DNA of 36,317 nucleotides, taken from a virus. Shown piece after piece: positions 4,075-33,479 of this stretch. Both the position numbers and the translations under genes were made by a program. Every line of letters begins with the position of its first letter. Position 1 is the stretch's first letter. The notes below the pieces were generated by a model. That model was given only the letters and a program-made list of their open reading frames with translations, did not search any database and was not told the DNA's origin. The stretch covers positions 1-36,317 of IMG/VR virus record IMGVR_UViG_3300025466_000097, one strand, 5' to 3'.

Positions 4075-5148
4075 TTAAATACCCTTACCGTCTCGTGCGT
4101 TTTTAAATGCCTCAGCCATTGTTAATACGTGTTGGTCTCCTGTTGGCGGGTGCTGTATTCCGGCATTCCGGTTAGTAGCAATCACCTCTTTTAAACCAAG
4201 CGACTTACCATAATTAACCAAGTCCTTTTCATAGTTAGGGTTTAGCCTCATTGCGATTACCTTGTGCATAAATTTGACATCAGGAACTCCCTTATCGTCA
4301 CTTACTAATTTCTGCCAAGTTTCACCGTCAAGGATAGCTTTTGTAAAAATTCCCGTGTCGTCAAATTGAAACTTGAATGGGTCTATACCTTCGCCAAAAT
4401 CAATAACAACACTTTTGTTTTGATTAAGGGATTTGGTACTTTCATGTGATTCAAGAAACTGCTTTTGCTGCTCTAATAAAGCGGCGAATTGCGCTTGAGC
4501 TTGTTCGTCAACTTGCGCATTTGGTGTATTCTTCGATTCGGGAAGTTTAAAATTTTGTTGCTGCTCAATAAGCCTCTGCCTTTGCTTTGCAGCATCTGCC
4601 TTCATATAAACACTACCCCTTGCTTTTTCCTCATCAGTAGCGTACTCATCTTGCTTGTATTTGTCATTATACAATACAGCAATATCCTCATCAGAGAGTG
4701 TAGGATATTCCGCTTTCAACGCTTCTTTAGCAAGAATAGTATCAGGCACTTTCGTGTAATCAACTGCCTTTGCTATCAAATAATCCTCAGCACTACCACC
4801 TTTTTTAATATGCTCATTCAACTGTACTGCAAAAGGGTCTAATCCTAACTCTTTAAGCAAGTCCTCTTTGGGTGCAGTTTTCAATAACTCTTTCCAATCA
4901 GTAACGGGTGACTGCTGTTGAGTATTATCATTTGCAGGTGCAGGGGCTGCGCTTTTAAACCTGTCAGAAACAACTATTGTAGATTGATTAGCAGGTGTTT
5001 CTACTGTTTCTGCCGCTTGCTGTGTTTGTTCAGTTGCAGTAGGGGCAGGTGCAGCAGGTGTTTGTTCTACTACTTCCCTTTCTACGGGCTTCATACTTTC
5101 GCCTAATGTGCTTTCCGTGATTACCATTTTATTTTCTTGTCCTTCCAT
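4075..5148 (-). CDS. Scaffold-like / head assembly protein (357 aa)
   Basis: The first 75 residues are low complexity (Pro, Ala, Thr, Gln) and the middle is charged and helical, with many Lys, Glu and Gln residues. The C-terminal third is more ordered (for example SVVIDFGEGIDPFKFQFDD near 250). Phage scaffolding proteins are typically acidic, helical, of this length, and encoded just upstream of the capsid gene, exactly as here (33 bases apart). The start at 5148 has an A-rich leader; a second in-frame ATG seven codons later (5127) is an alternative. A possible host-type -7 box lies about 18 bases upstream. The role is inferred from context, since scaffolds are poorly conserved. Confidence 0.65.
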   Translation of the reverse strand: MEGQENKMVITESTLGESMKPVEREVVEQTPAAPAPTATEQTQQAAETVETPANQSTIVVSDRFKSAAPAPANDNTQQQSPVTDWKELLKTAPKEDLLKELGLDPFAVQLNEHIKKGGSAEDYLIAKAVDYTKVPDTILAKEALKAEYPTLSDEDIAVLYNDKYKQDEYATDEEKARGSVYMKADAAKQRQRLIEQQQNFKLPESKNTPNAQVDEQAQAQFAALLEQQKQFLESHESTKSLNQNKSVVIDFGEGIDPFKFQFDDTGIFTKAILDGETWQKLVSDDKGVPDVKFMHKVIAMRLNPNYEKDLVNYGKSLGLKEVIATNRNAGIQHPPTGDQHVLTMAEAFKNARDGKGI

Positions 5149-5165: not shown

Positions 5166-5173
5166 CAAAACTA
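5166..5173 (-). promoter_or_regulatory. Possible -7 promoter box upstream of scaffold-capsid genes
   Basis: On the minus strand this reads TAGTTTTG, matching the Bacteroidota -7 consensus TAnnTTTG. No TTTG is found at the usual -33 distance. It would give the scaffold and capsid genes their own start behind a leader of roughly 10 bases. Confidence 0.35.
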
Positions 5174-5202: not shown

Positions 5203-5229
5203 TACCATTTAACAAGCAGATTGCTTGTT
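5203..5229. promoter_or_regulatory. Hairpin with a partial copy of the TACCATTTAAACAA motif after the portal gene
   Basis: TACCATTTAACAA (5203-5215) is a one-base-shorter version of the motif conserved at 7724 and 27575. It runs into an exact inverted repeat, AACAAGCA (5211-5218) and TGCTTGTT (5222-5229), with a three-base loop. The hairpin abuts the portal stop codon. No T-run follows on the minus strand, so a simple terminator is doubtful. Confidence 0.5.
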
Positions 5230-7664
5230 TATTGCTGCTGCTCTTGCGCTTCGTTAGGCATTTCGCCACCTGTGTCTGTAGCCTGTTCTTGCGGCGAACC
5301 TTCTGGCATACCCGTTTGTGGTGGCGGCTGTTGTGGCATTGGTGGCGGTGAAACTTGTATCGGATTGATAGAAGGAATATTGCCACTGCCTGAATCAAAA
5401 TGGTTTAGTATATCCCCATGCTTTTTAGCTTCTGCTGCTATCGTGGCTGCAATAGTTTTCGCTTGCCCCGCCACTTGTGCCGCATTGACAACCTTGGCTG
5501 CATCGACTTCCGCAACTACATAGTTCCATTGGCCGATAACATTCTGCTTTTCCATTTCACATTTATGAAGCAGTAGGGCAGTCTGTTGTTTACCTTGTTC
5601 GGCTTGCTGCGCAGATTGAACTTGTATCTGTCCGTTCATTTGCTGCTGCTGCAATGCTTGTTGTTGTTTTAAGGCTACTTTATTTTTAATCAAATATGCC
5701 AACCTTGCTTGCGCCTCTTTCAAGTCCCTTATTCCCTGTATCAGCAATACATCTGACGGGTCAACCAATCCTTCCTGATTGTATTGGGCTAGTTGTGCCA
5801 TTAGCCCCTCTCTTTGTTGGTCGGTAGGCATATCTTCTAAGAATACACCAAGCTCGCTGTTTGCGATTTTTGGGTCTATTTGAAAGAATTTTATGGCATT
5901 TGTCCCCAATGCTTTTGCATAGCCTTCTACCTTGCCAAGCGTAACGGCTATCTGTGTTTTTTGTACTATGGAATCGCACAACTGCAATAGCAGGTATTTT
6001 TCTGCATCGCTCAATAGGTAGAGGCTGTTGTTAGTGCCACTCTCCTGCATGGAAGCCACACCATTAAGCATTTTAGGATTTACGCTAGTGCCATCGGTAA
6101 GCGCATTGAAGCCGCTTATATTCTGTATTTCCTGTAATGTATTTTGAAGGTCGGCGTATAGTTGCGCAAAGGCTTGTAGTTGACCGCTAGGTACAATGTC
6201 GGCAGGACTGTAATTAGGATTGCCAGTCACAAGGTCTTTTGAGTTCCATAGTATAACACCCTTTTGGAACATAAATTCAACTAACTCGATAGGCTTCATA
6301 TTGGCACTACCCTTACCCAGTGCCACATTTTCAAATCCTGATACATCTAGTTTGATTAGGTATGGTATCAAATCCATTTTAAGGTTATCCAACCTCATCT
6401 TGGTTAATTGGTAACTATCGGCGCAAGGCATCAACCTTTCTGTGATACCCGTAAAATTCATACGGTCGAAATTCCAAGCGTATAAATGATAGTCCAATGT
6501 AGTACTCCACCAATTACTTTTCTTCCTGTTTTGGTTTTTCTTTAACCCGTATTCATAGCAAAAGCTAGTACCAATAATCCACTTGCATTGATAAACTACT
6601 TGTACGGTGTTATTTATAAATTTAGCCGTTCCGTCAGATTGTTGAGCAGGCTGTGGTTGTGTGCTTTTGATATTTGAAAAATTAGTTTTCACAAACCGCT
6701 TATTTCCCCGTTTATCAATTTTGTCCTCATAAACAGTTGTGTTCCAACTGTAAAACTGTATGTCTAGCACCTGGCACTTAAACCTAAAATAATTACCAAC
6801 ACCATTTACCGAATCAATAGTCATCGGATTTCCTAGTTGCCCGAAATTAGCTTTGCAGATAGCCGACATTTCATCATTGGTAAAGTATGGTGCTAGGTCA
6901 GCTACCCTTACCTCTATCACTTCTCCGCAATGAACCATATCTGAAAAGTCTGGCTGATTACAGTAGGAAGTAATTAATACTTTCGGGTCAACAGAACGAA
7001 AACGTACCATTCCGTATTCGTCTATCCAATCTTTATATCCCGCTAATCCGAAGTCATATAGGTTTTCAGCTATCTTTTTTCTTTCCCTATCAATTTTATT
7101 GTTTTGTAGCGAAAGATTTATTGCATTTTCAGATTGTATGGCAAGGTTGTGTTTGTAGCCAAATTGCGCTTGTATTTCTAATTCTTCTAGGTCGTCAGGT
7201 TCTCCCGTTGCTTTTTGCAATACGGGCGATTGCGCTAGTTTAGGTGATGCTTGCATTGCAGCGTCACGCATAATTATTTTAGTTCTTATTTTGGCGTAAT
7301 AAGCATCTTCCTCGGACTTAGCACTTTCGTCTATGGCAAAAGCATTTATATTAAAAAGTCTTTGTATGATTTTGGAAACTGAAATCTCTCTGTACTTAGG
7401 GATGATGGCATAAACATTCCAATTGTTTGACAAAACTGACGTGTCAGGAATGTCATCGCCAAATATTGCTTTTTTGTACTTGTCAATAGATTGCTTTCCT
7501 AAAGCGTACTGCCTAATTTCATTATACCTATCCCTGCCCCTATAAAGAGAAGTCAATGGTAGGTTAGTACCAGCATCCTGCCAAGCTGCTTTACAATATT
7601 GTAAAATCCAATCTTTACCCTTTTTTCTAGGGTCAATTTGATGGTCGGGATATGATCCGTTCAT
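5229..7664 (-). CDS. Portal protein (811 aa)
   Basis: A long, mixed alpha/beta protein starting MNGSYPDHQIDPRKKGKDW. The N-terminal segment around residues 20-70 (ILQYCKAAWQDAGT, then a YNEIRQYALGKQS motif) looks like the start of portal proteins in crAss-like phages. The central wing/stem region contains LYDFGLAGYKDWIDEYG near residue 205. The last ~130 residues are a Gln/Ala-rich helix and Pro/Gln-rich tail, as expected for a barrel helix and a flexible end. It forms the dodecameric DNA gate at the head vertex. It lies between TerL and scaffold in the late order, but is separated from TerL by a plus-strand cassette. The start codon is 20 bases below the 66-bp regulatory element. Confidence 0.85.
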   Translation of the reverse strand: MNGSYPDHQIDPRKKGKDWILQYCKAAWQDAGTNLPLTSLYRGRDRYNEIRQYALGKQSIDKYKKAIFGDDIPDTSVLSNNWNVYAIIPKYREISVSKIIQRLFNINAFAIDESAKSEEDAYYAKIRTKIIMRDAAMQASPKLAQSPVLQKATGEPDDLEELEIQAQFGYKHNLAIQSENAINLSLQNNKIDRERKKIAENLYDFGLAGYKDWIDEYGMVRFRSVDPKVLITSYCNQPDFSDMVHCGEVIEVRVADLAPYFTNDEMSAICKANFGQLGNPMTIDSVNGVGNYFRFKCQVLDIQFYSWNTTVYEDKIDKRGNKRFVKTNFSNIKSTQPQPAQQSDGTAKFINNTVQVVYQCKWIIGTSFCYEYGLKKNQNRKKSNWWSTTLDYHLYAWNFDRMNFTGITERLMPCADSYQLTKMRLDNLKMDLIPYLIKLDVSGFENVALGKGSANMKPIELVEFMFQKGVILWNSKDLVTGNPNYSPADIVPSGQLQAFAQLYADLQNTLQEIQNISGFNALTDGTSVNPKMLNGVASMQESGTNNSLYLLSDAEKYLLLQLCDSIVQKTQIAVTLGKVEGYAKALGTNAIKFFQIDPKIANSELGVFLEDMPTDQQREGLMAQLAQYNQEGLVDPSDVLLIQGIRDLKEAQARLAYLIKNKVALKQQQALQQQQMNGQIQVQSAQQAEQGKQQTALLLHKCEMEKQNVIGQWNYVVAEVDAAKVVNAAQVAGQAKTIAATIAAEAKKHGDILNHFDSGSGNIPSINPIQVSPPPMPQQPPPQTGMPEGSPQEQATDTGGEMPNEAQEQQQ

Positions 7665-7684
7665 TATATCAGTGATAGTATAAT

Positions 7685-7750
7685 GCGAACCTATTTTTAT
7701 TATTTGTATTTATTTGTATAAAATACCATTTAAACAAATAAATGTTTGTA
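7685..7750. promoter_or_regulatory. 66-bp divergent regulatory element, copy 1
   Basis: On the plus strand, in order: GCGAACCTA (7685), TTTGTA (7713), TACCATTTAAACAA (7724), TTTGTA (7745). The same four blocks with exactly the same spacing occur at 27536-27601. Both copies sit between a late minus-strand gene and a plus-strand gene. Neither copy shows the host TAnnTTTG box towards the minus-strand gene, so a phage-specific late promoter or activator site is a reasonable inference. Confidence 0.7.
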
Positions 7751-7787
7751 ATTTTATGCTTTATTAATTATTAAAAACAGACAAACA

Positions 7788-8246
7788 ATGGACGTAGATG
7801 TAAAAATTGCACACATAGCTAAAGTGTGCCACCAAGCTAATAAAGCTTTTTGTGAAACAAATGGTGATGAATCTCAAAAAGATTGGCATAAGGCTGAACA
7901 ATGGCAGAGAGAAAGTGCCATAAAAGGTGTTCAGTTTAGAATTGATAACCCAGAAGCAGGTCACGATGCGCAACACAACTCATGGATGAAAGAGAAAGTT
8001 GATGCAGGGTGGGTTTACGGAGAAGTAAAAGATGCAGAAAACAAAACGCATCCTTGCATTGTTCCGTTTAATGAACTTCCTGAGTTCCAACAAAAGAAAG
8101 ATGCCCTTTTTTGCGCAATCGTAGACGCCTTAAAGCCAGTAGTAGAAACTGACCCACAAGCAGGTATTGAAAGTACGACTGTTGATAATAAACCCCCAAC
8201 CGAACAGAACGGTGAAATTGAACCGACAAAAGATGTTGTAGAGTAA
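7788..8246 (+). CDS. RyR-domain protein (152 aa)
   Basis: Residues 5-115 read as a RyR domain, the small helical-pair module named after ryanodine receptors and also found in bacteria and phages. Diagnostic stretches are IAKVCHQANKAFCE (9-22), EQWQRESAIKGVQF (37-50), WMKEKVDAGWVYGEVKD (66-82) and KTHPCIVPFNELPEFQQKKD (86-105). The last 35 residues are a Pro/Glu/Thr-rich disordered tail. In prokaryotes the domain's role is not settled; ligand sensing has been proposed for homologues. It heads a two-gene plus-strand cassette inserted between portal and terminase, with the Hc1-like gene following 50 bases later. Domain identity is strong; function in the phage is unknown. Confidence 0.85.
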   Translation: MDVDVKIAHIAKVCHQANKAFCETNGDESQKDWHKAEQWQRESAIKGVQFRIDNPEAGHDAQHNSWMKEKVDAGWVYGEVKDAENKTHPCIVPFNELPEFQQKKDALFCAIVDALKPVVETDPQAGIESTTVDNKPPTEQNGEIEPTKDVVE

Positions 8247-8296
8247 TTAACAAACAATCATTTTTTATAACCGCCGAAAGGCACAAACTACAAACA

Positions 8297-8479
8297 ATGG
8301 ATTTTTTAAAAAAACTAGAAGCATTGAATAAAGATGCTCAAAAAGAAGCGAAACTTTTTTACGAAAAGGAAAACAAAGCTGCTGGCACACGCCTGAGAAA
8401 GATTATGCAAGAGATTAAAGCTGTTGCACAAGAAATCAGAGAGGATGTAAGCAAAAAGAAAAGCGTAGAACAAGTTTAA
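8297..8479 (+). CDS. Hc1-like (histone H1-like) DNA-binding protein (60 aa)
   Basis: A small basic helical protein. The stretch FYEKENKAAGTRLRKIMQEI (21-40) continuing into AVAQEIREDV matches the small 'histone H1-like' proteins of Bacteroidota, related to the N-terminal helices of chlamydial Hc1. Such proteins bind and compact DNA without much sequence preference. Here it has no Lys/Ala-rich tail, just SKKKSVEQV at the end. It is co-directional with the RyR gene and followed by a strong terminator. It could help compact phage DNA, shield it or disturb the host nucleoid; which of these is unknown. Confidence 0.8.
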   Translation: MDFLKKLEALNKDAQKEAKLFYEKENKAAGTRLRKIMQEIKAVAQEIREDVSKKKSVEQV

Positions 8480-8606: not shown

Positions 8607-8648
8607 ATTTAACTAAATGGTAAAATAAAAACTACCGCTAATATCCAT

Positions 8649-8667
8649 AAGTATTATTGCAATACTT
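8649..8667. repeat. 7-bp inverted repeat
   Basis: AAGTATT and AATACTT around a five-base loop, between the two terminators in the convergent gap. Possibly an operator or a structural hairpin; nothing further can be said. Confidence 0.5.
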
Positions 8668-8686
8668 CTTGTTGTTTGTGCGTTTT

Positions 8687-8713
8687 CCCCTGTCAGCAAT
8701 GGCAGGGGTTTTT
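8687..8713 (+). terminator. Second terminator, plus-oriented, overlapping the TerL stop
   Basis: CCCCTGTC (8687-8694) pairs with GGCAGGGG (8701-8708), with one G-T pair, around the loop AGCAAT, followed by five T. It would catch plus-strand read-through before it enters TerL as antisense RNA. The T-run overlaps the TerL stop codon. Confidence 0.75.
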
Positions 8714-10760
8714 AATTGGTAGAACGCATCCTAAACCAATCGGATAAGTTCAATGTTTCAGTAGCTTTCTTTTTGATAATCGTGTGCATATCTCCTATTA
8801 AAGCATACCCTGCACCCATAGCGGCATCAAACTTTTGCGTATTTTTTAAGTCAAATAACAACCAGTCGTTAATCAACTCGCTGAAATAAACGTTTTCTAT
8901 GTAGTTTTCAATATAGTCCTCGGTAAGTTCTGCCATAGTCTGTTTATTAGCAGGTGTAGAAGGAATACCATATTCAGAAGCATCAGGCAGTTTAATTAAA
9001 AACTTCTCATAGCCTCTGTCACAGAAATATCGCTTAATGCCTATCTTTTGACTTTCAAACAGCATCTTACAACCAAAGAATACACACATAAGTATCATAT
9101 CTTCATACATAATAGCAGCCGTTGGTGGACGGTGTAAATATTGGCATACAAACGCTTTATTAAAGTTTGAGTTATCTAGCGGGTCATTCTTTTTCAATAC
9201 ATATCCTGCCGCATCTGAACGCCTGTTATCTTCTACTGTATCGTGGTCAAAAGGATCTAGCCCAACAATATGATTCAAGTTTTTAGGCACGCATACATTA
9301 CCAACACGTTCAACCTGATTAGATTGTACTGTATCAAGATAATCTTTTACTACTTTGAATTTTCCGTTTTTACTAGCTTTAAATACTACTTTGCTGTCTT
9401 TAGTGCCATTATCCCATAAGAAATTACCCTGTATGATAATGTCTTTAGTTGCATAGCTTAGGTAATCTAACCTGTCATTTAGCTTGATAGAATTGTATAG
9501 GCATTTATTATTATCAACGTAAAATGCCTCACGGATACTGTTTGGGTTTTTTCTTATGTAAGATGCAAGGGCAGACGGATTGTTCCTTAGTGAATTTCTT
9601 CTTTGTGCATCGTATTCCTTTGCATATTCAATATCGGCGAAACCAAACTTATCCAGCTTGTATTCTTTGCGATACATTGCTTCGTTTGCAGGTAAGAAGT
9701 GAGTATATAATCCCGTTGCGGTACGCCCTAAACTATTCTTATCTTTAGGGTCACTCATTTTAACAAGGTTCTTAAACGCTGCACCACCTGCTTCCATTTC
9801 TTCCACCGTTGTTATATACAGATGCTTACCTACATAAACGCCATCTTCCTCACTACAAAACATTACTGTATTGTGTCTTTCAACAATATCAATATCCTTT
9901 AACTTGCCACACTCGTCAGATACATAGCGGTGCAAGGGTTGTCCATCATAGTGTTCAATCTTCCTAGTTCCGTAGTCGATATAACTCTCCAAACTATTTT
10001 CATCTTCATCATCAAACTTTATCTGATTAGCTTTTTTACCTCTTTGTGAAGGTTTGAAGAATTTAAGTGTTTCGCTAGGCGTATCCCCACCGCTTGTATC
10101 CCAATGTTTAGGTCGGAAGAAGTCAGGTAGTTTTTTCCAAGGTTGTACTACTGCTTTTGAGAAAACTATTTTACCGTCTTGGTCGGTCTTAGATTGAATA
10201 CCACCGTGAGCATTGGCAGAACGTGAAATGTATTCGTATAGCACTATTCCTGCTTTCGCTGTTTTTCCTTGCCTACGTTTGGTAAAACTGATAAGTCCTA
10301 AACAGTTCGGGTCGTTCTCGCAATAGTTCCAGATGTAAAAAAATTTACGGTCAGTATCTCTGTAGTCCATAAAGCTACCTTGGAATTTCCACCAATTGAT
10401 ATACATATAGTGAAGCCCCGTTATGTAGGTAGGTTCTCCATTATTGTAAAACCAATATCCGCAAAGCCTATACTTCCATTGCTGCTCCTCAAAACTTAGC
10501 AATGTGTTATCGTAAAAGTTGGGGTCTGTTAATTGCTTTTGTGTTTCATTGTACCTACGTTTAATCCAGTCGGTAGGAAGCAGGGTTCGGTTAAAATATT
10601 GCTTTGATTCTGTTGCCGAATTTTTAACGATGCCTATATGTTCAAGCTCACCATTCCATACGTTTATACCATAGCCTACTGGTGGTAATTGGCAGTTATA
10701 AAAATAACCGTCACCGTTGTCAATTTTTTCTACACTACCACCTTTTATGCTTTTGTACAT
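8712..10760 (-). CDS. terL: Terminase large subunit (682 aa)
   Basis: ATPase-nuclease motor that cuts and packages phage DNA into the prohead through the portal. Visible motifs: a Walker A-like loop TKRRQGKTA (about 160-168), a Walker B strand LHRYVSDE (276-283) with the acidic pair, a coupling-type motif ITTVEE (316-321), and the RNase H-like nuclease acids in IVGLDPFDHD (498-507) and MLFESQ (566-571), with a third candidate Asp in the FDAAMGAG stretch near the C-terminus. The length fits the crAss-like terminase group, which has an extended N-terminal region. It follows the 187-aa gene by 3 bases. Its 3' end runs into paired terminators that separate it from the counter-oriented RyR/Hc1 cassette. 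Confidence 0.92.
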   Translation of the reverse strand: MYKSIKGGSVEKIDNGDGYFYNCQLPPVGYGINVWNGELEHIGIVKNSATESKQYFNRTLLPTDWIKRRYNETQKQLTDPNFYDNTLLSFEEQQWKYRLCGYWFYNNGEPTYITGLHYMYINWWKFQGSFMDYRDTDRKFFYIWNYCENDPNCLGLISFTKRRQGKTAKAGIVLYEYISRSANAHGGIQSKTDQDGKIVFSKAVVQPWKKLPDFFRPKHWDTSGGDTPSETLKFFKPSQRGKKANQIKFDDEDENSLESYIDYGTRKIEHYDGQPLHRYVSDECGKLKDIDIVERHNTVMFCSEEDGVYVGKHLYITTVEEMEAGGAAFKNLVKMSDPKDKNSLGRTATGLYTHFLPANEAMYRKEYKLDKFGFADIEYAKEYDAQRRNSLRNNPSALASYIRKNPNSIREAFYVDNNKCLYNSIKLNDRLDYLSYATKDIIIQGNFLWDNGTKDSKVVFKASKNGKFKVVKDYLDTVQSNQVERVGNVCVPKNLNHIVGLDPFDHDTVEDNRRSDAAGYVLKKNDPLDNSNFNKAFVCQYLHRPPTAAIMYEDMILMCVFFGCKMLFESQKIGIKRYFCDRGYEKFLIKLPDASEYGIPSTPANKQTMAELTEDYIENYIENVYFSELINDWLLFDLKNTQKFDAAMGAGYALIGDMHTIIKKKATETLNLSDWFRMRSTN

Positions 10761-10763
10761 AGA

Positions 10764-11327
10764 TTACTTTCTAGCGAAGTTTTCTGGTCTGAATGATTGT
10801 TTCCTTACTTGGGTGCTGATAGCATCATCATCTCCGAAAAAGTCCTTGTAATAGCGGTTTAATTTAGCGATGTCACTATCTATCTCCTGAGATATTACAG
10901 CCTTTTTTTGAGCAGCTTCTAAGCGTTCCTTGTTACTTTCTCCGACTATCGGCGACATCAGTTCAGATATATTTTCCCAAAACTTGTATTCTAGTGCTAC
11001 TATTGCTGCGAACTCACGGCTTTTAACCTGTGTTTTCAGATACCATATAACCAAGGTCATTAACGTTTCATCAGAAAGCGTGAAGTAATCCTCCATTTCT
11101 TTCAGATTAGCTAATTCTGCGGCAGTTCTTTTTCGTTGGTCTATTTCCCTTTCCCTTACTATAAGAATGCTTCTTGGGTCATACATAAGCATCGTATAAG
11201 ACACTAGTCCGTGTATGTGTGTATGGCTTTTAAATTCATCAGGAATAGTTGCAATGAATTTATCCAAGTCTTTTTTGACAAGAGGATTATATTGGAATAC
11301 AGAGAAGTCTTTTTCGGTGTAAGTCAT
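10764..11327 (-). CDS. Terminase-adjacent protein, candidate small terminase subunit (187 aa)
   Basis: An all-helical, charged protein starting MTYTEKDFSVFQYNPLVKKD. Its middle has a long charged helix (REREIDQRKRTAAELANLKE, 58-77) and then FTLSDETLMTLVIWYLKTQV. The C-terminal part reads as another helix pair ending in a basic tail. Lying 3 bases upstream of TerL, in the usual slot of the small terminase subunit, it may recognise DNA or oligomerise at the motor. I see no clear helix-turn-helix, so the assignment rests on position. A possible -7 box TAATTTTG lies just upstream. Confidence 0.55.
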   Translation of the reverse strand: MTYTEKDFSVFQYNPLVKKDLDKFIATIPDEFKSHTHIHGLVSYTMLMYDPRSILIVREREIDQRKRTAAELANLKEMEDYFTLSDETLMTLVIWYLKTQVKSREFAAIVALEYKFWENISELMSPIVGESNKERLEAAQKKAVISQEIDSDIAKLNRYYKDFFGDDDAISTQVRKQSFRPENFARK

Positions 11328-11347: not shown

Positions 11348-11355
11348 CAAAATTA
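11348..11355 (-). promoter_or_regulatory. Possible -7 promoter box upstream of the terminase genes
   Basis: The minus strand reads TAATTTTG, matching TAnnTTTG, with a weak TTTA near the -33 position. The leader to the 187-aa gene would be about 16 bases. Just upstream, ACAAACATTTATCTGT resembles part of the 66-bp element. Confidence 0.4.
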
Positions 11356-11444
11356 CAGGTAAATTACAGATAAATGTTTGTTATTTACAAGATAGCATTA
11401 CTTTTGTTGTGGGTTAGATTTTTACTCATAAAATGAAATAGCGC

Positions 11445-11475
11445 ACCTCCTGTATTTTTATACGGGAGGTTTTTT
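11445..11475 (+). terminator. Plus-oriented terminator hairpin at the end of the giant gene
   Basis: ACCTCCTGTA (11445-11454) pairs with TACGGGAGGT (11461-11470), with one G-T pair, around a six-base loop, followed by TTTTT. The T-run is on the plus strand although genes on both sides are on the minus strand. For minus-strand mRNA it is a hairpin without a U-tract, right after the giant gene's stop, so it might mark an mRNA 3' end or block antisense transcription. Confidence 0.65.
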
Positions 11476-14400: not shown

Positions 14401-17400
14401 TATCTTCTATTTCGCCTTTATATTCGTCAAGACTGTACGGGTCTGCCCCTGCATTTAATAAAGCCCTACCTCTATCGGCATATTGCTCTGGAGTTAATAT
14501 AGTTCCCCTTTCTATTGGTGGAAATCCTAATCTTTCTGCTAAATCATTAAGAGAAGCATGGTTTACGCCAACAGTATTTTCCCCACCACCTTCTTCCTCG
14601 CTTCCATCTTCTTCACTAGGAGGAATACCATTACCTACCTTATCTTTAAACTCATTGTTTAAATGGTCAGTATATTTCTGCTCAAAGTTCTTTTTATCAG
14701 ATAGGTTTTTGTACCAATCTGATTCACGGAATTGTTTTAATCCTGCTTCAATCGCATCAGCAATACTAGCCCCTGCTTCCAATGTTTTAGCAACTGTTTC
14801 AAGTGAAGCGTCCCATAGTAGGTCAAAGCCTGTGGAAGTATGAAAACCGCCTAGTTTACTAATCTTCCCACTGCGGATAATTTCAGCCGCTTTACGGGCT
14901 ATATCACCTGCTTTTTCTACGGATTCACGTCCTGATTGTCCTCGCTGCTGCCCATCGCCCGTTCCGTTGGTGCTTGTTGCATCATTGGTGGTGGTGCCTG
15001 CATCGTCATGTCGGATGCTGCTGGTGTTCCTGCCTGATTGCCCATTTTCACCTTGGGCATCTTCGGCAGTCTTTCCTTCGGTAGTGCTTCGTGTGGTAGT
15101 TTCTCCTTCGGTGGTTTCGGAAGGTGAGGGAATTTGCTTGTGTTCGGGTTCGGAGGTGGTGCTATCCCTTTGTCTTGCGCCACTTTCATTATCGCCAATC
15201 TCTTTATTACCTTCTCCTTCACTTGCGGAGGAAGGTTGTTTATCCTGTTTACCGTATTCTGATTCATAAGTATCTATTAAGTGATTGATATATCCATCGC
15301 TATTCCTTAAATTAAAATCTTTTTCTCCTTCGGATATTAAGTAATCGTTTAATTCCTTTTCTTGCTTTTTCGCTTCCTCTTCGTATTGTTTTCCTAACTC
15401 TTCGTAGTGTCTATCAAGTATCTTTTTGTAATCGTAAGTATCTGAATAATCTTTTGCTGCTGCAAACCTACTATTATGCTTTGAAATAGCATCTTGTAAA
15501 GCTTCTTTTATATCTTGCGTAGAAACAGCGTTTTGGTGTTCTTCGGTTAAATTATCCCATAGTTTATGTGCAATATAATCTACCGACAAAGGTTTATTGC
15601 CACTTTTATCCGCTTTTGCCTTTGCAATATCTTTAGGAGTAGCAGCATAATCTCTGGCTTTTACTTCGCCTGACTTAACCTTTCTTCTATCTGTATTTAA
15701 ACTTGCTCTTTCGGTTGTACCAACTACATCATTTATACTTTCAGGATGTACCTTTCCACCTGTTGCCAAGTAGTCCAATGCTATTTGATGTGCAGATTCA
15801 GGTGGTGTTTCACTGGTTATTTCATTGTGTCGGTCATACAAATTCCTTGCATCAATGGCATTTAGCTGGGATTGTTTTAATCCATTGCTTTCCTCACTTG
15901 ATGCCAACTTAGTGCTTAATTGTGGCTGAGGTTCTTGTGCTTTCTTGTATTTGCCTAATCCTAATTGTTTATCTAGTGCATCCCTGTCACTTTCAAAATA
16001 ATCTCCCTCTTTTTTTATACGGTCAACAATTCCCTTTTCGTCTAATCCATAGGTAATACCATTCGGAAACTCCTTATGCAGTATTTCGGCGACTTGCACA
16101 GCTTCTTTTGGGCTGTCAAATTCAATAGGCGTACTATTCCATCCATCATTAGGCCTATTGTCGTGTACAATCAATAGTGTCTTACCATTACTGCCATCAT
16201 TTACCCTAATCTTAGGTGTTTCATAGTAAACATTACCACCCGTTGCGTTTAATTGTCTGATAGGTTGCGGCTGTTCATCACTAGACTTCAAAACAGGTGC
16301 AGCATTTTCAGCCGCACCTTCATTGCCCGTTTGCGCTTGATTACCTAATACCCCTTGTTGCCCTTCGTTGGCTTGGGTTTCGGCATCGGCTTCGTTGCTT
16401 TTGCCATCTTCGCTATTTTGAGGTGAGGAAATACTTGTTGCAAATCTTGGAATTAATAAAGGTTCTTTCTTTTCATCGACATTCCCATCTTCATATAGCT
16501 TTTGTAATAAGCCATCATAAGCCTTAGCTTTTTCGTTCCAAATTTTTTTAATGCCACTATCGCCAGACGCTTCTCCTTTAGCAACCGCTTCTGTCTTTAG
16601 TTGCAATATATGCAATGCTTTATCCTTTGCAGCATCACTCATATCATCAGGAAGATTAGTATAATAATCCCTAAAGGTTTGTATCTTTTCTTTCGCATTA
16701 GCAGCATTATTATCAGGACTTTTATCCAAACTTGATATTGCTTGTTGGTATATTGGTTCAGGTGCTTTAACAAGTGTATTTAATGCGTCTTGAGTATCTT
16801 TACTATACGAATTATACCAATCAGGGTTTGTTTTATCGTACCCGTTTTTCTTAGCTTCTGCTAGAGTATTATAAGCACTTGACAATACTTGTGGCGCTTT
16901 CATTATTAAATCAAAAGCAGCCATTTGTAAAGCACTTTCAGGAACATCGGAAAAGTCAACTTTTATACCAGCTTTGTTTTTATTTAAGTCGTTTAATACA
17001 GCAGTTCCACCGCCAATAGCAGCAGCTTTAGCTACATCGGAAGGTGCTGTTTTAGCCAAATTGCTAAAATTGTCGTAAAGGCTTTGTGTAAATGATTTTT
17101 TTAAAGCAGCCGTAGGTGCATAATTGTCTAATAGTTGAGCAGCCGTTTTCCCTTCATCTCCAAACCCGTGCATCCCGTGAAACATTGCCCCTTGCATACC
17201 ATTAATCATAAAAGCATCAGTACCCGTTTCGTTTACTGCTTTCACTTTTTGGTCATCTGTAAGTGTGGGGTCGGTAGCTATTGCAGCGTGATTTTCTCCC
17301 ATGCCATTTAATCCCATCAATGGAATATCCATATATGGATTAATCAACGTACTAGCTGCATAAGGAAGTACGCCGCCAACTATTTTGCCCGCATATCCCA

Positions 17401-26022: not shown

Positions 26023-26705
26023 TACGTTGTTTTATTTGCTTCTATTGCACCAAACTGTATAAAATCCTTTTCGTCCATATTTAACCCCAAGTACATCATT
26101 GCCTTTCCGATAATCTTTGAAACATAAGTATTCGTCCACTCTAGCTGAACGCTCGTTGTTGGATTATAAGTTATCGTCCTTCCGCTTTGTGTAAACCCAT
26201 ATTTGGGTTTTGCAGGCTTCCTCAAATAAATCATTTCACCTGCGTAAGCCACTTTAGGATAAAGCTGTGTGTAAATCTCATAGTTGCCAAGCGCATCACT
26301 AGAGCCTTTATCTACGCCAATAGGAGAGGTAATAGTAGGCTTCCTTAATTCGCTTTTCAAGGCATTTGCCAACTGGTTTTCATTCATATACCTAACCTCA
26401 TTGTAGGTTTGACCTAAAACATTGTCATATCCAATTACAGATAAGCCTAACAAATGCGTATATCCATCCGGGTAATTCAATAATCCATTGGGGCAATCTG
26501 CGTAACTGAAAGGCCATGTAACTTTGAATATCGTAAGCGCATCATGTACTACCTGCGTCTTTCCGTACTCTTTGAAATAGTCAGTAAAGCACTCCATCTG
26601 CGCCCTCTCTAGGTACATATCAATTTCGGCGTCAGAGGTAAAACCCCCACGTTCCTTTCTTTCGATAAGGTGTATGAAATCGTGTATGTCGTTTATTTCC
26701 GCCAT
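26022..26705 (-). CDS. Ring/head-completion protein (227 aa)
   Basis: Starts MAEINDIHDFIHLIERKERG, and TSDAEIDMYLERAQMECFTD (23-42) is followed by YFKEYGKTQVVHDALTIFKV, a helical/strand pattern seen in structural proteins of Bacteroidota phages. The middle contains NYPDGYTHLLGLSVIGYDNV and the end has YVSKIIGKAMMYLGLNMDEK. It probably forms part of the connector between portal and tail. It overlaps the upstream GroES-like gene by 13 bases and shares one base with the 220-aa gene downstream. No enzyme motifs are seen. Confidence 0.65.
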   Translation of the reverse strand: MAEINDIHDFIHLIERKERGGFTSDAEIDMYLERAQMECFTDYFKEYGKTQVVHDALTIFKVTWPFSYADCPNGLLNYPDGYTHLLGLSVIGYDNVLGQTYNEVRYMNENQLANALKSELRKPTITSPIGVDKGSSDALGNYEIYTQLYPKVAYAGEMIYLRKPAKPKYGFTQSGRTITYNPTTSVQLEWTNTYVSKIIGKAMMYLGLNMDEKDFIQFGAIEANKTT

Positions 26706-27532
26706 GTGCCTAGTACATTTCTTTTATGTATTAACCAATATTCTTCGCCCCATAAATCATATTTATTGACAAAACGTGGCTCAAAGCCAACTATTTCCCC
26801 CTTTTTAATATTAAGCTCAGGGTAATCCTCAATAGTTACTCCCCTATCAGCAGCCGTTGCTAGTATGCTCATAGGAGGCAATGACAACCCATTTTCTAAA
26901 TTATAGTAAGTAGTATGGTCTGTATTGATACTTTTAGTTATGATGAAATCAGATGCGGAAATTATTTGTCCATTCTTTTTGGTAGCAAGTAGTAACAATG
27001 GGTCAACTTTCCAATAGTCTTTACCATCAATATCAAGCAGGTTCTTAAAAGTAAAATCCTGTACGCCACCAAAATTGAATTGTGCTAACCACCTACCTAT
27101 CTCTGATTCGGTAACCAAATCCCGTCCATCAATAGGAAATCCCTCTTTGCCTATTAGCATTCCTGTCCACCTGACAGATATTTTTCCTGGCACCGCAAAA
27201 ACTTTTATCTGCTCCCCTTTGCTGTTAATCCACCACTTCATAAAATCAGAACCATCTAAAGCAGGCGCAAATGAATCTGAGTTGTTCCTGAAACGCATAT
27301 CGCTGATAACAGAATAACTGAAAGCAACATCATCACCTATACTAAGGCTTGAAACACCTTTTTTATTCAGCCCTTTGGGAATTTTAGGAAGCGATGAAAC
27401 AATACCCGTTACCGTTGCATTCCACTCTGGTCTATACGAGGGGTCTAAGTATAATTTTAGCCCACCATTAAGCAATATCTCATCATTCATTGCTTTTTTT
27501 ACCGTAACAAAAATGTGATTAGGTGATACCAT
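26693..27532 (-). CDS. Tandem GroES-like (Cpn10) protein at the head of the late operon (279 aa)
   Basis: The N-terminal domain (about 1-75) reads like a Cpn10 barrel: NHIFVTVKKAMNDEILLNGG (5-24) matches the 'PLxDRVxVK...GGI' opening, NATVTGIVSSLP the 'GxVxxVG' strand, and LSIGDDVAFSYSV the 'vGDxVxF' strand. A second Cpn10-like unit covers about 190-279: ASDFIITKSINTD, NGLSLPP, NIKKGEIVGFEP and EYWLIHKRNVLG. The middle of the protein is an insertion. This differs from the ordinary 98-residue GroES at 28.5 kb. A role in folding capsid or tail proteins with the host GroEL is plausible but not shown. Its start is three bases below the 66-bp regulatory element, so the mRNA may be nearly leaderless. 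Confidence 0.6.
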   Translation of the reverse strand: MVSPNHIFVTVKKAMNDEILLNGGLKLYLDPSYRPEWNATVTGIVSSLPKIPKGLNKKGVSSLSIGDDVAFSYSVISDMRFRNNSDSFAPALDGSDFMKWWINSKGEQIKVFAVPGKISVRWTGMLIGKEGFPIDGRDLVTESEIGRWLAQFNFGGVQDFTFKNLLDIDGKDYWKVDPLLLLATKKNGQIISASDFIITKSINTDHTTYYNLENGLSLPPMSILATAADRGVTIEDYPELNIKKGEIVGFEPRFVNKYDLWGEEYWLIHKRNVLGTWRK

Positions 27533-27535
27533 ATA

Positions 27536-27601
27536 GCGAACCTAACACCTCATTTAATAGTTGTTTGTAATTTTTACCATTTAAACAAGTATTTGTTTGT
27601 A
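27536..27601. promoter_or_regulatory. 66-bp divergent regulatory element, copy 2
   Basis: GCGAACCTA (27536), TTTGTA (27564), TACCATTTAAACAA (27575), TTTGTA (27596), with exactly the same internal spacing as copy 1 at 7685-7750. It lies between the first gene of the late operon (minus) and a three-gene plus operon, in the position of a late promoter/operator. Confidence 0.7.
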
Positions 27602-27607
27602 TTTTTG
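27600..27607 (+). promoter_or_regulatory. Possible -7 box for the plus-strand three-gene operon
   Basis: TATTTTTG fits TAnnTTTG and ends 16 bases before the preferred ATG at 27624. No good TTTG lies at the expected -33 spacing. Confidence 0.35.
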
Positions 27608-27623
27608 TCTAAACGAATCGTGG

Positions 27624-27893
27624 ATGTACTGCATAAAGACAAGTAGAAATACTGATTTTATTAATAACACTTTCACATCTTACTCACGACTGTTTGACTT
27701 AGACGACATAAGAGCATTTATCCTAAAAAAAAGAAAAGAAGTTTGCTTGCAACACAAGATAGGTTCTCATTACAAGAAAGGAATACTGGTCATAGTGTAC
27801 GACTGGGATGCGATATTCTCAAACAAACAAGTTGTAGAGCTGCTCAATTGGAAAGTATTTAAAGAAAATGGCATTAAACAAATCAAACAATAA
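27624..27893 (+). CDS. Small protein of unknown function (89 aa)
   Basis: I do not recognise a family. The frame can be extended to a TTG at 27597, but that would overlap the putative promoter, so the ATG at 27624 (MYCIKTSRNTDFINNTFTSY) is preferred. The protein is basic, with FILKKRKEVCLQHKIGSHYK in the middle, and ILVIVYDWDAIFSNKQVVEL suggests a strand then a helix. It is first in a three-gene plus-strand operon. Its stop overlaps the next start by one base (TAATG). The operon lies between late and early regions and could serve in early takeover or regulation, an inference from place only. Confidence 0.5.
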   Translation: MYCIKTSRNTDFINNTFTSYSRLFDLDDIRAFILKKRKEVCLQHKIGSHYKKGILVIVYDWDAIFSNKQVVELLNWKVFKENGIKQIKQ

Positions 27894-28165
27894 TGAAGAA
27901 GATTTTAAACAAGATTAAATTAGTAAAACAAATACTATCTACCCAGAAAGAAATAACTGAAATAGCATTAAGGCTATTAAAAGCAAAGCATTTTATCATA
28001 CATACCTGTGATGATAATTTAAAAGTTACTACTGACATGAACTGTCCAGAAATAATGGTACATAACTTCCTGCCAAAACACCTTCACGACCAATACAAAC
28101 AAGAGATATTTCCAAGCACAACAAGGCCTGAAAGACGTGCTATAGAAAAACTAAGAAAAGTATAA
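27893..28165 (+). CDS. Small basic helical protein of unknown function (90 aa)
   Basis: Starts MKKILNKIKLVKQILSTQKE, then a predicted helix to about residue 33 (EITEIALRLLKAKHF), a strand-rich middle (IIHTCDDNLKVTTDMN) and a basic C-terminal helix (RPERRAIEKLRKV). No family is recognised. Its start overlaps the previous stop by one base, so translation is likely coupled. The next gene follows after 3 bases. Confidence 0.5.
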   Translation: MKKILNKIKLVKQILSTQKEITEIALRLLKAKHFIIHTCDDNLKVTTDMNCPEIMVHNFLPKHLHDQYKQEIFPSTTRPERRAIEKLRKV

Positions 28166-28168
28166 CCA

Positions 28169-28561
28169 ATGACACTACCGCAACTAGAAGAAATAGTACG
28201 TCCTCAGTTCCTATGGGACAAGCAGGACGGACGGCAATGGTTTACAATAGAAAAGTTTGGCAACAACCTTAGTGGTGCAAAAATGGGCATACAGGTATTT
28301 TCTGGCGTTGCTTTGATGTTTGATTTTTCGGAAGATGAAATCGCAAAGCATTGTGGTGTAGAAAAACGCTTGCTTGCAACCTACAAAGCAAATTTCATTA
28401 AGGCCTACAACGAATGCTTTATGGCATCCGTAAGTAGTCTTTACCAAGAAGGTTCATTTACGTCAAAAAGAATGATGGCAAAGACTAGGTTAGTAATCAA
28501 TGCCATCAAGGTAACTTACAATCTTAATCCGGTTTACGATAATACTAATCCCCTCCTTTAA
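28169..28561 (+). CDS. Possible helix-turn-helix protein (130 aa)
   Basis: Residues ~50-75 (MFDFSEDEIAKHCGVEKRLL) have the spacing of a helix-turn-helix: an acidic first helix, then a short turn at HCGV and a recognition-type helix. The rest is helical and basic, with YKANFIKAYNECFMASVSSL and a C-terminal stretch of Lys/Arg. A small terminase subunit or a transcription regulator would both fit. No family match is claimed. It is last in the plus-strand operon and converges with the GroES gene, their 3' ends overlapping by 17 bases. Confidence 0.5.
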   Translation: MTLPQLEEIVRPQFLWDKQDGRQWFTIEKFGNNLSGAKMGIQVFSGVALMFDFSEDEIAKHCGVEKRLLATYKANFIKAYNECFMASVSSLYQEGSFTSKRMMAKTRLVINAIKVTYNLNPVYDNTNPLL

Positions 28562-28841
28562 TTACCCCAAGTATCGTTCCGTTCTCACTTGCATCAAGCA
28601 GCGTATAGTCTTTTTCATTAAGGACTATCCCTATTCCTGTGCCATGGGAATACATTACGGTATCGTCCACTTTTACCACTCCAGCAGCTTCTGCCAAATG
28701 ACCTAACGAAACTACTTTTGCCATGGTAGGTTCTGCTACATCTGCCGCTACCTTGATGATACCAGCCTTTGTCTTGTTGTCTTTTACTATTGGGCTAACT
28801 AATATCAGGTTACCAATAGGTTTAAAATCCAATTCACTCAT
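28545..28841 (-). CDS. GroES-like co-chaperonin (98 aa)
   Basis: Length and motif order match Cpn10. LDFKPIGNLILVSPIVKDNK (4-23) is the start of the barrel, then KTKAGIIKVAADVAEPTMAK lies at the mobile-loop site, AKVVSLG is the 'GxVxxVG' strand, VKVDDTVMYSHGTGIGIVLN the 'VxxGDxVxY' strand and YTLLDASENGTILGVI the 'Y..v.E.dILaii' end. It would cap the host GroEL ring to fold phage proteins. Bacteriophage T4 gp31 is the known precedent of a phage co-chaperonin. It is last in the minus-strand early operon, 3 bases after the 115-aa gene. Confidence 0.85.
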   Translation of the reverse strand: MSELDFKPIGNLILVSPIVKDNKTKAGIIKVAADVAEPTMAKVVSLGHLAEAAGVVKVDDTVMYSHGTGIGIVLNEKDYTLLDASENGTILGVIKGGD

Positions 28842-28843
28842 AT

Positions 28844-29191
28844 TTATTGTTTTAATTGTTGCTCATCTAAAAAAGTTATTTCTTCACCTGCTAGTTTTGC
28901 ATCTATAATACTTTCCAATATCTCCCTAAAAGATGGGTCAAGCAATGCAATCTTTTTATTGATGGCAGGAACGGCAAAGACATCGCTATTCCATTCGTTT
29001 CGTATCCCATCCTTTACCTCATTGGGAAACAACGGTATCGTGATAAAATCCTGATAAATCCAATCTATCTTATTCTCGTACTTCTTTCCCATCCGTGACC
29101 CTAAGCTATCGGGCATTTCCCTCTGTAAATCCTGCAAATGCTCTTTGGCCATGCGCAAATGGTGAAAGGCTGATATAATGTTGCTTCTCAT
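28844..29191 (-). CDS. Unknown helical protein (115 aa)
   Basis: Begins MRSNIISAFHHLRMAKEHLQ, a basic helix, then DLQREMPDSLGSRMGKKYEN. The middle has IYQDFITIPLFPNEVKDGIR, and the end is an acidic helix (AKLAGEEITFLDEQQLKQ). The four-base overlap of its start with the stop of the 65-aa gene suggests coupled translation. No family is recognised. It shares the early operon with SSB and GroES. Confidence 0.55.
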   Translation of the reverse strand: MRSNIISAFHHLRMAKEHLQDLQREMPDSLGSRMGKKYENKIDWIYQDFITIPLFPNEVKDGIRNEWNSDVFAVPAINKKIALLDPSFREILESIIDAKLAGEEITFLDEQQLKQ

Positions 29192-29385
29192 AAAATAGTC
29201 TCGACTAAATTTTGCTCTGTTGTAAATTCAAACTCATAATGCCATGACATTTGAGTACCGTGCATTAGTGCATAAATTACCTGACCAGGGTTTACCTTTA
29301 ATTCGCATATCAGACGCTTGTTTTGATCTTTGTCTGTCTTTAGGTAAACAATGTCGCCAAATGAATAAGAAATATCTATAATCAT
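29188..29385 (-). CDS. Small beta-rich protein of unknown function (65 aa)
   Basis: Reads MIIDISYSFGDIVYLKTDKD, then CELKVNPGQVIYALMHGTQM and SWHYEFEFTTEQN. It has the look of a small beta-barrel, a kind I have seen among short proteins of Bacteroidota phages and mobile elements ('FGDIVYLKTD'). Function is unknown. It follows SSB by 3 bases in the early operon. Confidence 0.6.
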   Translation of the reverse strand: MIIDISYSFGDIVYLKTDKDQNKRLICELKVNPGQVIYALMHGTQMSWHYEFEFTTEQNLVETIL

Positions 29386-29388
29386 AAA

Positions 29389-29826
29389 TCAAAAAGGGAG
29401 ATCATCGGTTAATTCACTAGGTATACTCGATTGCTGTGCAGTGGCAGCAGCAGTAGGTTGATACGTTGGGCTTGTAGGATTAGGCACATTACTTTGCCCG
29501 CTACTATCTTCTTTACTACCTAGTAACTGCACACTAGAAACACGCAATGCCAACTTAACACCTGTACGCCCATCATTCGTTTGATAACTTTGTGCTTCGG
29601 GTTGTCCTTCAACATATACCTGAGTGCCTTTTTTTAGATATGGAACGATAGCTGTCTTGTCAGTCCACCAAGAACATTCCAACCAAGTCGTTTTGGTTTG
29701 CTGCACACCTTGCGCATCTTTATACTTCTCAGTATGGGCTACGGAAAAGTTGATAACATTCTTACTATTTACCGTGTTGGCGGTAGCATCTTTACCCAAA
29801 TGTCCGATTGCAATCAATTTAATCAT
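29389..29826 (-). CDS. ssb: Single-stranded DNA-binding protein (145 aa)
   Basis: Coats single-stranded DNA during phage replication and recruits partners through its tail. The OB-fold spans about 1-103: IKLIAIGHLGKDATANTV (2-19), INFSVAHTEKYKDAQG (25-40), TTWLECSWWTDKTA (46-59), LKKGTQVYVEGQPEAQSYQT (64-83) and GVKLALRVSSVQLLG. A disordered Ser/Pro/Gln-rich linker follows, and the last five residues are DDLPF, the acidic interaction tip typical of bacterial SSB. It lies between the RepL-like gene and a small unknown in the probable early operon. Confidence 0.95.
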   Translation of the reverse strand: MIKLIAIGHLGKDATANTVNSKNVINFSVAHTEKYKDAQGVQQTKTTWLECSWWTDKTAIVPYLKKGTQVYVEGQPEAQSYQTNDGRTGVKLALRVSSVQLLGSKEDSSGQSNVPNPTSPTYQPTAAATAQQSSIPSELTDDLPF

Positions 29827-29831
29827 TGTTT

Positions 29832-30392
29832 TTATTTTAATTCATCATTCAAATACTTGCTTTTAATCTCTTCCGTGTTCACCGCAACAACGTGGATATT
29901 GTCAGGGTACTTCGTAATCGTGTTGCCCGAAAAGAAATAAGCCGGATTGATCCAAAACACATTGGGATGACGGTGCCTGATAATAAAGCCCAACCCCGTC
30001 AAATCATCCACTGCCCTGCAATAACTACTATGGCTAACAGACGACCTATTCTTGAAATCTGCTATGTCCACCACGATATAATCATTGCCGTTCTCCACCT
30101 TTACTATTATCCACAACAACAATTTCAAAGAAGCCCCTGGTAACTGTATCAACTCCTTCAAGTGCGCCTGTATCTTGTACAGCCTTGCATAAGGCGTTAC
30201 TTCAACATAGTATCGGTTGTTAATCGTACCCGTGGCCGTAATATCCGTAATGATGCCTTCGTCACGCTTTACCGTGTTCAGCTCCTTGCTGTTATTTACT
30301 TCCATCACCTTCAATGAGTAATCCCTCAAGAAAGGATTCGAACCCATCTTCTTAGCCTTGAAAGTCTTGTTTGTTATCGGACTACGACCCAT
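29832..30392 (-). CDS. Winged-helix protein resembling RepL-type plasmid replication initiators (186 aa)
   Basis: The N-terminus is basic (FKAKKMGSNPFLRDYSLKV). Residues ~85-155 look like a winged helix-turn-helix, with LLLWIIVKVE, SSVSHSSYCRAVDDLTGLGF (117-136) as the recognition region, IIRHRHPNVFWINPAYFFSG (137-156) as the wing and following strand, and a 'WINPxxFFxGN' ending that I associate with RepL and similar initiators or phage regulators. It probably initiates replication or regulates transcription. It sits directly upstream of SSB and downstream of a 61-aa gene, close to the origin-like control region, which supports a replication role. A GGGTTCGAATCC stretch in this gene resembles a tRNA T-arm but is coding. 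Confidence 0.6.
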   Translation of the reverse strand: MGRSPITNKTFKAKKMGSNPFLRDYSLKVMEVNNSKELNTVKRDEGIITDITATGTINNRYYVEVTPYARLYKIQAHLKELIQLPGASLKLLLWIIVKVENGNDYIVVDIADFKNRSSVSHSSYCRAVDDLTGLGFIIRHRHPNVFWINPAYFFSGNTITKYPDNIHVVAVNTEEIKSKYLNDELK

Positions 30393-30578
30393 TTACTTCA
30401 CTTTAATTGTCACCCCGTAAGGATACTTAATCACCCAATGCCTAGACGACACCCTGAACACTTCGTCCTTGCTATCAATATTCAAAATAATCTCATCGCC
30501 TATATTGGGCAATGCCATCACGTTCCAAGCCTCAATCTCGTGCTTGAACCCATTGGGTAGTTGAAAAGTTACTTGCAT
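30393..30578 (-). CDS. Small beta-rich protein of unknown function (61 aa)
   Basis: Reads MQVTFQLPNGFKHEIEAWNV, then ALPNIGDEIILNIDSKDEVF and HWVIKYPYGVTIKVK. The pattern suggests a small beta-barrel with 'xxGDEI' typical of SH3-like folds. It overlaps the 438-aa gene by 10 bases upstream and abuts the RepL-like gene. No family is recognised, and the overlap supports it being a real translated gene. Confidence 0.5.
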   Translation of the reverse strand: MQVTFQLPNGFKHEIEAWNVMALPNIGDEIILNIDSKDEVFRVSSRHWVIKYPYGVTIKVK

Positions 30579-31906: not shown

Positions 31907-31936
31907 CAAAGATACAACAATTCTATACTTGTCAAA
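31907..31936 (-). promoter_or_regulatory. Strong Bacteroidota-type promoter for the early operon
   Basis: On the minus strand: TTTG (31936-31933), 18 bases, then TATCTTTG (31914-31907). This matches TTTG-N(17-23)-TAnnTTTG. The predicted start is about 16 bases before the 438-aa gene's ATG. The first copy of the 23-bp direct repeat covers the -33 region and extends into the spacer, so it may be an operator. Confidence 0.75.
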
Positions 31937-32151
31937 ATATTAAATAATTCGCAAAACATTAAATAATTCAATAAAATGCTAAAGTTCTCATATATGCTAA
32001 TTAATTATTTTCATCATACGATAAGCCCAGTAAGGGTTTCAAGCCAAAATTTACATTTCGAAAAACGTATATTATATATATATACATAAAAAAATTCAAT
32101 TTTCATTCCCTTGAAACCCAATACCAGTAAGGCTTTCAGAGGAATTTTAAT

Positions 32152-32174
32152 CAATTCTATACTTGTCAAAATAT
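32152..32174. repeat. Second copy of the 23-bp direct repeat of the early promoter
   Basis: Identical to 31918-31940, including CTATACTTGTCAAAATAT. On the minus strand it contains the TTTG of a -33 element, but no matching TAnnTTTG follows, so it looks like a bound site rather than a promoter. Confidence 0.8.
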
Positions 32175-32260
32175 GCAATAATTCTTTTGCAACATTGTTG
32201 CATTTGTATTTTATTTACCAAAATCGGATTCCAACCCGCACGATAGATAAAACATATAAC

Positions 32261-32319: not shown

Positions 32320-32348
32320 TTTGTTTGTATTTTTCCCTTATATCTTTG
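32320..32348 (+). promoter_or_regulatory. Strong Bacteroidota-type promoter reading into a gene-poor stretch
   Basis: TTTG (32320-32323), 17 bases, TATCTTTG (32341-32348). It fires rightwards, but the first convincing gene in that direction starts at 32906. Transcripts would begin near 32355. Confidence 0.7.
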
Positions 32349-33446: not shown

Positions 33447-33479
33447 TTTGTTTTATTAAAATGCACCATTGTATATTTG
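33447..33479 (+). promoter_or_regulatory. Bacteroidota-type promoter of the RadC operon
   Basis: TTTG (33447-33450), 21 bases, TATATTTG (33472-33479). The transcript would start near 33485, about 77 bases before the RadC-like gene. Confidence 0.7.

Follow-up and report, generated by a model that had tools for sequence, protein, structure and literature searches.

What is the role of a 66-base element that stands at two divergent gene borders of the same phage, with its parts held at equal distances? The window, that is, the whole 36-kb stretch of DNA analyzed here, is a phage fragment from IMG/VR. Its portal and terminase match proteins of Flavobacterium and Cellulophaga podoviruses at 20 to 30% identity, and one further protein has a weak match to the crAss-phage muzzle domain. 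The late genes, including the terminase (8712-10760), the portal (5229-7664) and the structural genes, occupy the minus strand from 27532 toward lower coordinates, and small plus-strand cassettes are found at 7788-8479 and 27597-28561. The SSB and GroES-like genes (minus strand, 28545-31885), together with the plus-strand genes from 32906, look like the early part. The very end of the record (positions 1 to 208) consists of an 81-bp tandem repeat in 2.6 perfect copies, which may be either real or an assembly end artifact.

Two copies of an element with constrained spacing

Direct reading of both copies (7685-7750 and 27536-27601) revealed four blocks each at equal spacing, all where the initial annotation had placed them. 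In an ungapped alignment, 45 of the 66 positions are identical. Uninterrupted matches of 9, 6, 14 and 8 bases alternate with spacers that are no more alike than chance predicts (only ca. 10 of 31 positions). Directly after block 1 there are nine consecutive mismatches, as between unrelated AT-rich DNA, and the likeness also continues past block 4 (TAnnTTT). The two copies are the best non-tandem pair of 66-mers in the window, and the pair begins exactly at the block borders; the sole better pair is the tandem repeat at the left end, and the best pair in each of three shuffled windows had no more than 41 matching positions. The 38-base core (TTTGTA-N5-TACCATTTAAACAA-N7-TTTGTA), with up to three mismatches permitted, occurs exactly twice, both times with none, and was absent from 100 dinucleotide shuffles; individual blocks taken singly were not significant. 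A search of viral_contigs with the exact 27-base core retrieved no further contig. The similarity of the two copies is real rather than due to chance, and the element is one of constrained spacing and not a fresh duplication, as had been argued initially. Equal spacing combined with free spacers points to a site read by a protein. Outside the blocks, both copies carry the hexamer GTGATA 13 bases ahead of block 1 (7672-7677 and 27523-27528, plus strand).

Putative promoter parts and further sites

Bacteroidota promoters are characterized by TTTG at -33 and TAnnTTTG at -7, the latter being TAHHTTTG in F. johnsoniae, 4 to 5 bases from the start, with T-8, T-7 and T-6 nearly invariant and G virtually absent at -10/-9 (PMC6847099). 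Block 1 (GCGAACCTA) is a putative degenerate -7 box of this host type, belonging to a minus-strand late promoter (TAGGTTCG versus TAnnTTTG). The minus-strand side had been described as devoid of the host box, which was an error, as block 1 reversed (TAGGTTCGC) is -7-like. The octamer is in the same frame as that of the host but has GG at -10/-9 and C at -6, and is anti-consensus at three positions compared to the F. johnsoniae -7 (host consensus from PMC6847099). Block 2 reads TACAAA on the minus strand; it lies 19 bases upstream of the octamer, at -33, and block 3 reversed is TTGTTTAAATGGTA, a putative phage-specific box a little upstream of TACAAA. Block 4 belongs to the plus strand, where its TA opens a separate host-type -7 (TATTTTTG in copy 2 and TAATTTTA in copy 1) located 25 bases from the box start in both copies and in L003, a relative described below. 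The element is composed of two divergent putative promoters with one common box (Table 1).

If the start lies 4 bases past the octamer, copy 1 would have a leader of ca. 17 nt; in copy 2, the messenger would start at, or at most 1 base from, ATG 27532. The octamer is very near this annotated ATG (27530-27544, minus strand), and the messenger of the structural operon would be leaderless. This start codon is supported by the first protein of the operon (gene 26693-27532), whose weak GroES-like match begins at residue 1; the other in-frame ATG is at 27490.

The element had been presented as a two-copy feature; both copies are genuine, but the set comprises five sites (W1 and W2, the two copies, and W3 to W5). 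The partial matches previously pointed out at 5203 and near 8616 are further members (W3 and W4), with a -7-like octamer 31 to 32 bases after ATGG. The pattern AATGG[TG]-N28-33-TAnn[TA]T[TC]G has exactly four matches in 2 x 36 kb (W1 to W4). All fall in intergenic DNA, which makes up 6.4% of the window; a late minus-strand gene follows closely in three cases, and in the fourth a conserved terminator lies downstream. Shuffling gave 0.46 matches for the whole window and 0.035 for intergenic DNA, figures that are descriptive and not tests, as the box and octamer patterns were drawn after the sites had been seen. A non-host box at a fixed distance from the -7 is found at W1 to W4 and partially at W5, and none of the five sites has a -33 TTG 17 to 21 bases upstream of the -7. 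At -7, W5 conforms to TAHHTTTG, and TAGGTTCG of copies 1 and 2 and AAGATTTG of L003 do not. Unlike W1 to W5, all three early-region promoters found are canonical (TTG-N-TAHHTTTG). A match to GACCATTTAAACAA at 14655-14668 was discarded, since it is inside a gene and lacks a -7 octamer at the right distance.

Table 1. Features of the putative late and early promoters in the window and of the L003 counterparts (positions refer to the window unless L003 is named).
Feature	Positions	Strand	Basis or counterpart
W1 -7 octamer TAGGTTCG (block 1 reversed), predicted promoter of portal gene 5229-7664	7686-7693	-	Orthologous AAGATTTG in L003 at 3980
W1 TACAAA at -33, 19 bases from -7 octamer (block 2 reversed)	7713-7718	-	AACAAA-19 in L003
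W1 late box TTGTTTAAATGGTA (block 3 reversed)	7724-7737	-	Motif search
Divergent -7-like octamer TAATTTTA, overlaps block 4, upstream of plus gene 7788-8246 (RyR domain)	7749-7756	+	L003 counterpart TATTTTTG (L003 3925, minus)
W2 -7 octamer TAGGTTCG, predicted promoter of structural operon, first gene 26693-27532	27537-27544	-	Sequence
W2 TACAAA at -33, 19 bases from -7 octamer	27564-27569	-	Sequence
W2 late box TTGTTTAAATGGTA	27575-27588	-	Motif search
Divergent -7 box TATTTTTG, upstream of plus cassette 27597-28561	27600-27607	+	Sequence
W3 -7 octamer TAGTTTTG, predicted promoter of gene 4075-5148	5166-5173	-	L003 counterpart TATTTTTG at 6461
W3 late box CTTGTTAAATGGTA (earlier partial match)	5203-5216	-	Motif search; TAGTTTTG 31 bases after ATGG
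W4 late box TTAACTAAATGGTA (earlier reversed partial match)	8609-8622	+	L003 counterpart GGGTTAAA (L003 3171, minus)
W4 -7-like octamer TATTATTG, 31 bases after ATGG	8652-8659	+	Identical in L003 (3135, minus)
Intrinsic terminator CCCCTGTCAGCAATGGCAGGGG-TTTTT, would end ca. 50-nt RNA from W4	8687-8713	+	Sequence/fold
W5 -7 box TAATTTTG, predicted promoter of gene 10764-11327 and terminase	11348-11355	-	89% identical in L003
W5 divergent box and -33 GTAAATAACAAA, 21 bases from -7 box	11377-11388	-	Sequence
Early-region promoter, host-type TTG-17-TATCTTTG	32321-32348	+	Sequence
Early-region promoter, host-type TTG-21-TATATTTG	33448-33479	+	Sequence
Early-region promoter of SSB operon 28545-31885, host-type TTG-18-TATCTTTG	31907-31935	-	Sequence
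L003 portal site, GGGTTAAAATAACAAA-N19-AAGATTTG
L003 next-gene site (W3 counterpart), GGGTTAAATAACAAA-N21-TATTTTTG
L003 plus-oriented site (W4 counterpart), GGGTTAAACAACAAA-N21-TATTATTG
L003 terminase-operon site (W5 counterpart), GTAAATAACAAA-N21-TAATTTTG

Counterparts in a related phage

L003 (IMGVR_UViG_3300003793_000009, 11.8 kb) has 66 to 89% nucleotide identity to the window in the aligned pieces, with amino acid identities of 92% for the terminase and 64 to 65% for the portal. It covers four of the five borders (sites LA to LD), without the copy 2 region, and presents ACAAA and a -7-like octamer at each of the four. Its version of the box, GGGTTAAA, appears three times in 11.8 kb (shuffle mean of 0.49), at orthologous borders and nowhere else, with ACAAA and a -7 octamer after it each time. 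Within each phage the box hardly varies, and between the two it differs by one inserted base and a few changes (ATGGTAAAA versus ATGGGTTAAA), the trace that would be expected of a trans-acting protein drifting between two lineages. Slow drift acting on the sites one by one, a simpler process, might also have produced it. The plus-strand -7 at the portal border is kept in L003 (TATTTTTG); GTGATA is not retained at the portal site. W5 and its -7 box are highly similar in L003 although a different gene sits right behind. An extra gene of ca. 105 amino acids (L003 125-443) is inserted directly behind this conserved W5-type promoter.

Conservation of the blocks in relatives had been set beforehand as a test of the element. 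At orthologous late operons the box, ACAAA and the -7 octamer do stand at the same borders, but the box sequence has shifted and the comparison is with L003 only. More relatives were sought in viral_contigs with the portal, the terminase, a 256-amino-acid structural protein and a 187-amino-acid protein, and in genome_contigs with the portal and terminase, and only L003 was close. The distant relatives L004 to L011, with terminases ca. 30% identical, have no AACAAA-N-TAnnTTTG site.

Three other conserved or repeated stretches were observed around these promoters. W4 (8652-8713, plus strand; 3135-3072, minus strand, in L003) would drive an RNA of ca. 50 nt without an ORF, ending in a perfect terminator. 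Conservation between the window and L003 is much higher here than in the flanks, the stretch gives a better fold than shuffled sequence (z = -3.05), and it has no Rfam match; its product is a possible late small RNA. A second short putative RNA unit, of ca. 60 nt (11378-11470, plus strand; 61-1, minus strand, in L003, where it is conserved), has a host-type plus-strand promoter, TTG-18-TACTTTTG, that overlaps the W5 -33 region, followed by a strong terminator (stem at 11445-11470, fold z = -4.33). In the early region, CAATTCTATACTTGTCAAAATAT is found twice (31918-31950 and 32152-32184, 94% over 33 nt), the first on the -33 side of the SSB operon promoter; it could possibly be an early operator or a decoy in this 1-kb noncoding stretch.

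Late-promoter model, rival readings and known systems

From what the DNA shows directly (blocks, spacing, -7-like octamers, the five-site set, the L003 counterparts and the contrast between early and late promoters), we infer transcription starts at the octamers, binding of a phage factor and which way this factor acts on the plus-strand side. The element probably comprises two divergent promoters, of which the one on the minus strand is a late promoter specific to the phage and needs a phage factor, and the format that would best explain the sites is [TTGTT(T)AAATGGTA]-N5/6-[ACAAA at -33]-N18-21-[TAnnTTTG-like -7]. The initial annotation had suggested a phage-specific late promoter or activator site, which was right in kind and is the best-supported reading, only that the element would be an entire minus-strand promoter, -7 box included. 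Host RNA polymerase carrying the primary sigma would depend here on a phage-made DNA-binding factor seated on the box and ACAAA, because the -33 TTG is absent and TAGGTTCG carries bases that the host consensus avoids; this factor is best read as an activator or a sigma-remodeling protein. It would be made from early genes with ordinary host promoters, so that the late genes would be switched on after the early ones, and would bring host polymerase to a start that is otherwise ignored. Because in both copies the box covers the -33 region of the weak divergent plus-strand promoter, factor bound there would shut that promoter down or hand it over; repression appears at least as likely as activation, and blocking may be likelier than helping. 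Dependence on the factor might be strongest at copies 1 and 2, because their -7 is poor; they serve the portal gene and the main structural operon, for which leakage in the early phase would presumably be most costly.

No activator was identified among the window proteins, and the proteins scanned included neither a sigma-like protein nor a match to MotA or AsiA relatives, the record being a fragment. A protein of 2,266 amino acids was rejected as a crAss-like phage RNA polymerase, as it has no RNAP domain and no DxDGD motif. Two activator candidates of 122 (32906-33274) and 130 (28169-28561) amino acids gave low-confidence models (pLDDT of 51.5 and 53.6, respectively). A 186-amino-acid protein of the SSB operon (29832-30392) showed weak winged-helix matches (MarR_2, E = 0.06; HTH_36, E = 0.18) and is our best guess for the activator, no more.

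Some observations weigh against a factor-dependent late promoter. There is one close relative in the collections and copy 2 is outside its coverage, the box sequence differs between the two phages and is only partial at W5, and the good -7 boxes of W3 and W5 could work without a factor. Besides, the -33 motif is weak in F. johnsoniae host promoters (PMC6847099), so its absence here is not decisive. Instead of an activator aiding the host sigma, a phage sigma factor or sigma-remodeling protein might read the whole promoter including the altered -7, as both -33 and -7 are off the host consensus in copies 1 and 2 and in the L003 portal site; we consider this unlikely, given that W3, W5 and their L003 counterparts retain a host-type TAnnTTTG and that no sigma-like protein was detected among the proteins scanned from this fragment. 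A related and tentative proposal, to which we give somewhat more room although it is still doubtful, is a class of late promoters with both -33 and -7 altered (box-ACAAA-N19-TAGGTTCG), which would imply a phage protein re-aiming or replacing the unusual Bacteroidota primary sigma, and a two-way switch at divergent late/plus-strand borders.

The site could also be an operator only, at which a repressor silences the divergent plus-strand promoters while the late genes are transcribed from elsewhere. The position of the box over the -33 region of the plus-strand -7 boxes would fit, and in copy 1 the box forms a 14/15 inverted repeat (ATTTATTTGTATAAA/TTTAAACAAATAAAT). However, this repeat is not retained in copy 2, W3, W4 or the L003 sites, and the dyad was set aside for not being common to the other sites; moreover, at W3 and W4 no divergent gene accompanies the box, and there is a -7-like octamer on the side to which it points, making an operator alone very unlikely. 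Least credible, to the point of being nearly negligible, is a functionless leftover of duplication or recombination between the two borders. It would account for the GTGATA common to both copies outside the blocks, but a neutral duplicate would show even divergence rather than perfect blocks alternating with chance-level spacers, and further diverged members are found at other promoters and in L003.

The transcription programs of Bacteroidota phages are little described, and a search for their late promoters in the literature library used here found nothing on point. The five-site promoter model and its L003 counterparts make late timing directly testable and offer a bait for finding the activator; they would also supply late-inducible promoters for a phylum in which E. 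coli parts do not work. Compared with the Bacteroidota primary promoter (PMC6847099), the -7 of W3, W5, the L003 sites and the plus-strand sides fits or nearly does, whereas the element is without a -33 TTG and copies 1 and 2 have the GG and C deviations at -7. As in the T4 middle promoters (MotA box plus AsiA, sigma appropriation; PMC2988021, PMC6755090), a host -10/-7-type element is kept, a phage box replaces the host -35/-33 at a nearly fixed distance and the phage early promoters are host-like. Here, however, the box is longer and further upstream (about -56 to -43), with ACAAA at -33 in addition, and the -7 of copies 1 and 2 is poor, while the -10 of a T4 middle promoter must be very good. 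The late promoter A3 of phi29 (PMC3100819) also has a poor -35 and, as the model would have it here, is helped by an adjoining protein, p4, which is bound between the late and early promoters and shuts the early ones off, but the p4 sites of phi29 are curved inverted repeats and p6 is needed as well, in contrast to the asymmetric box at several separate operons. In Mu (PMC4461284), the phage transactivator C is required at a few late promoters over several late operons, as would be the case here, although no relationship in sequence, host sigma or activator was seen as far as tested. As far as tested, the set is not homologous to the T4 middle, phi29 A3 or Mu late systems, but its logic resembles theirs and, by this analogy, it would be a fresh example of a known principle.
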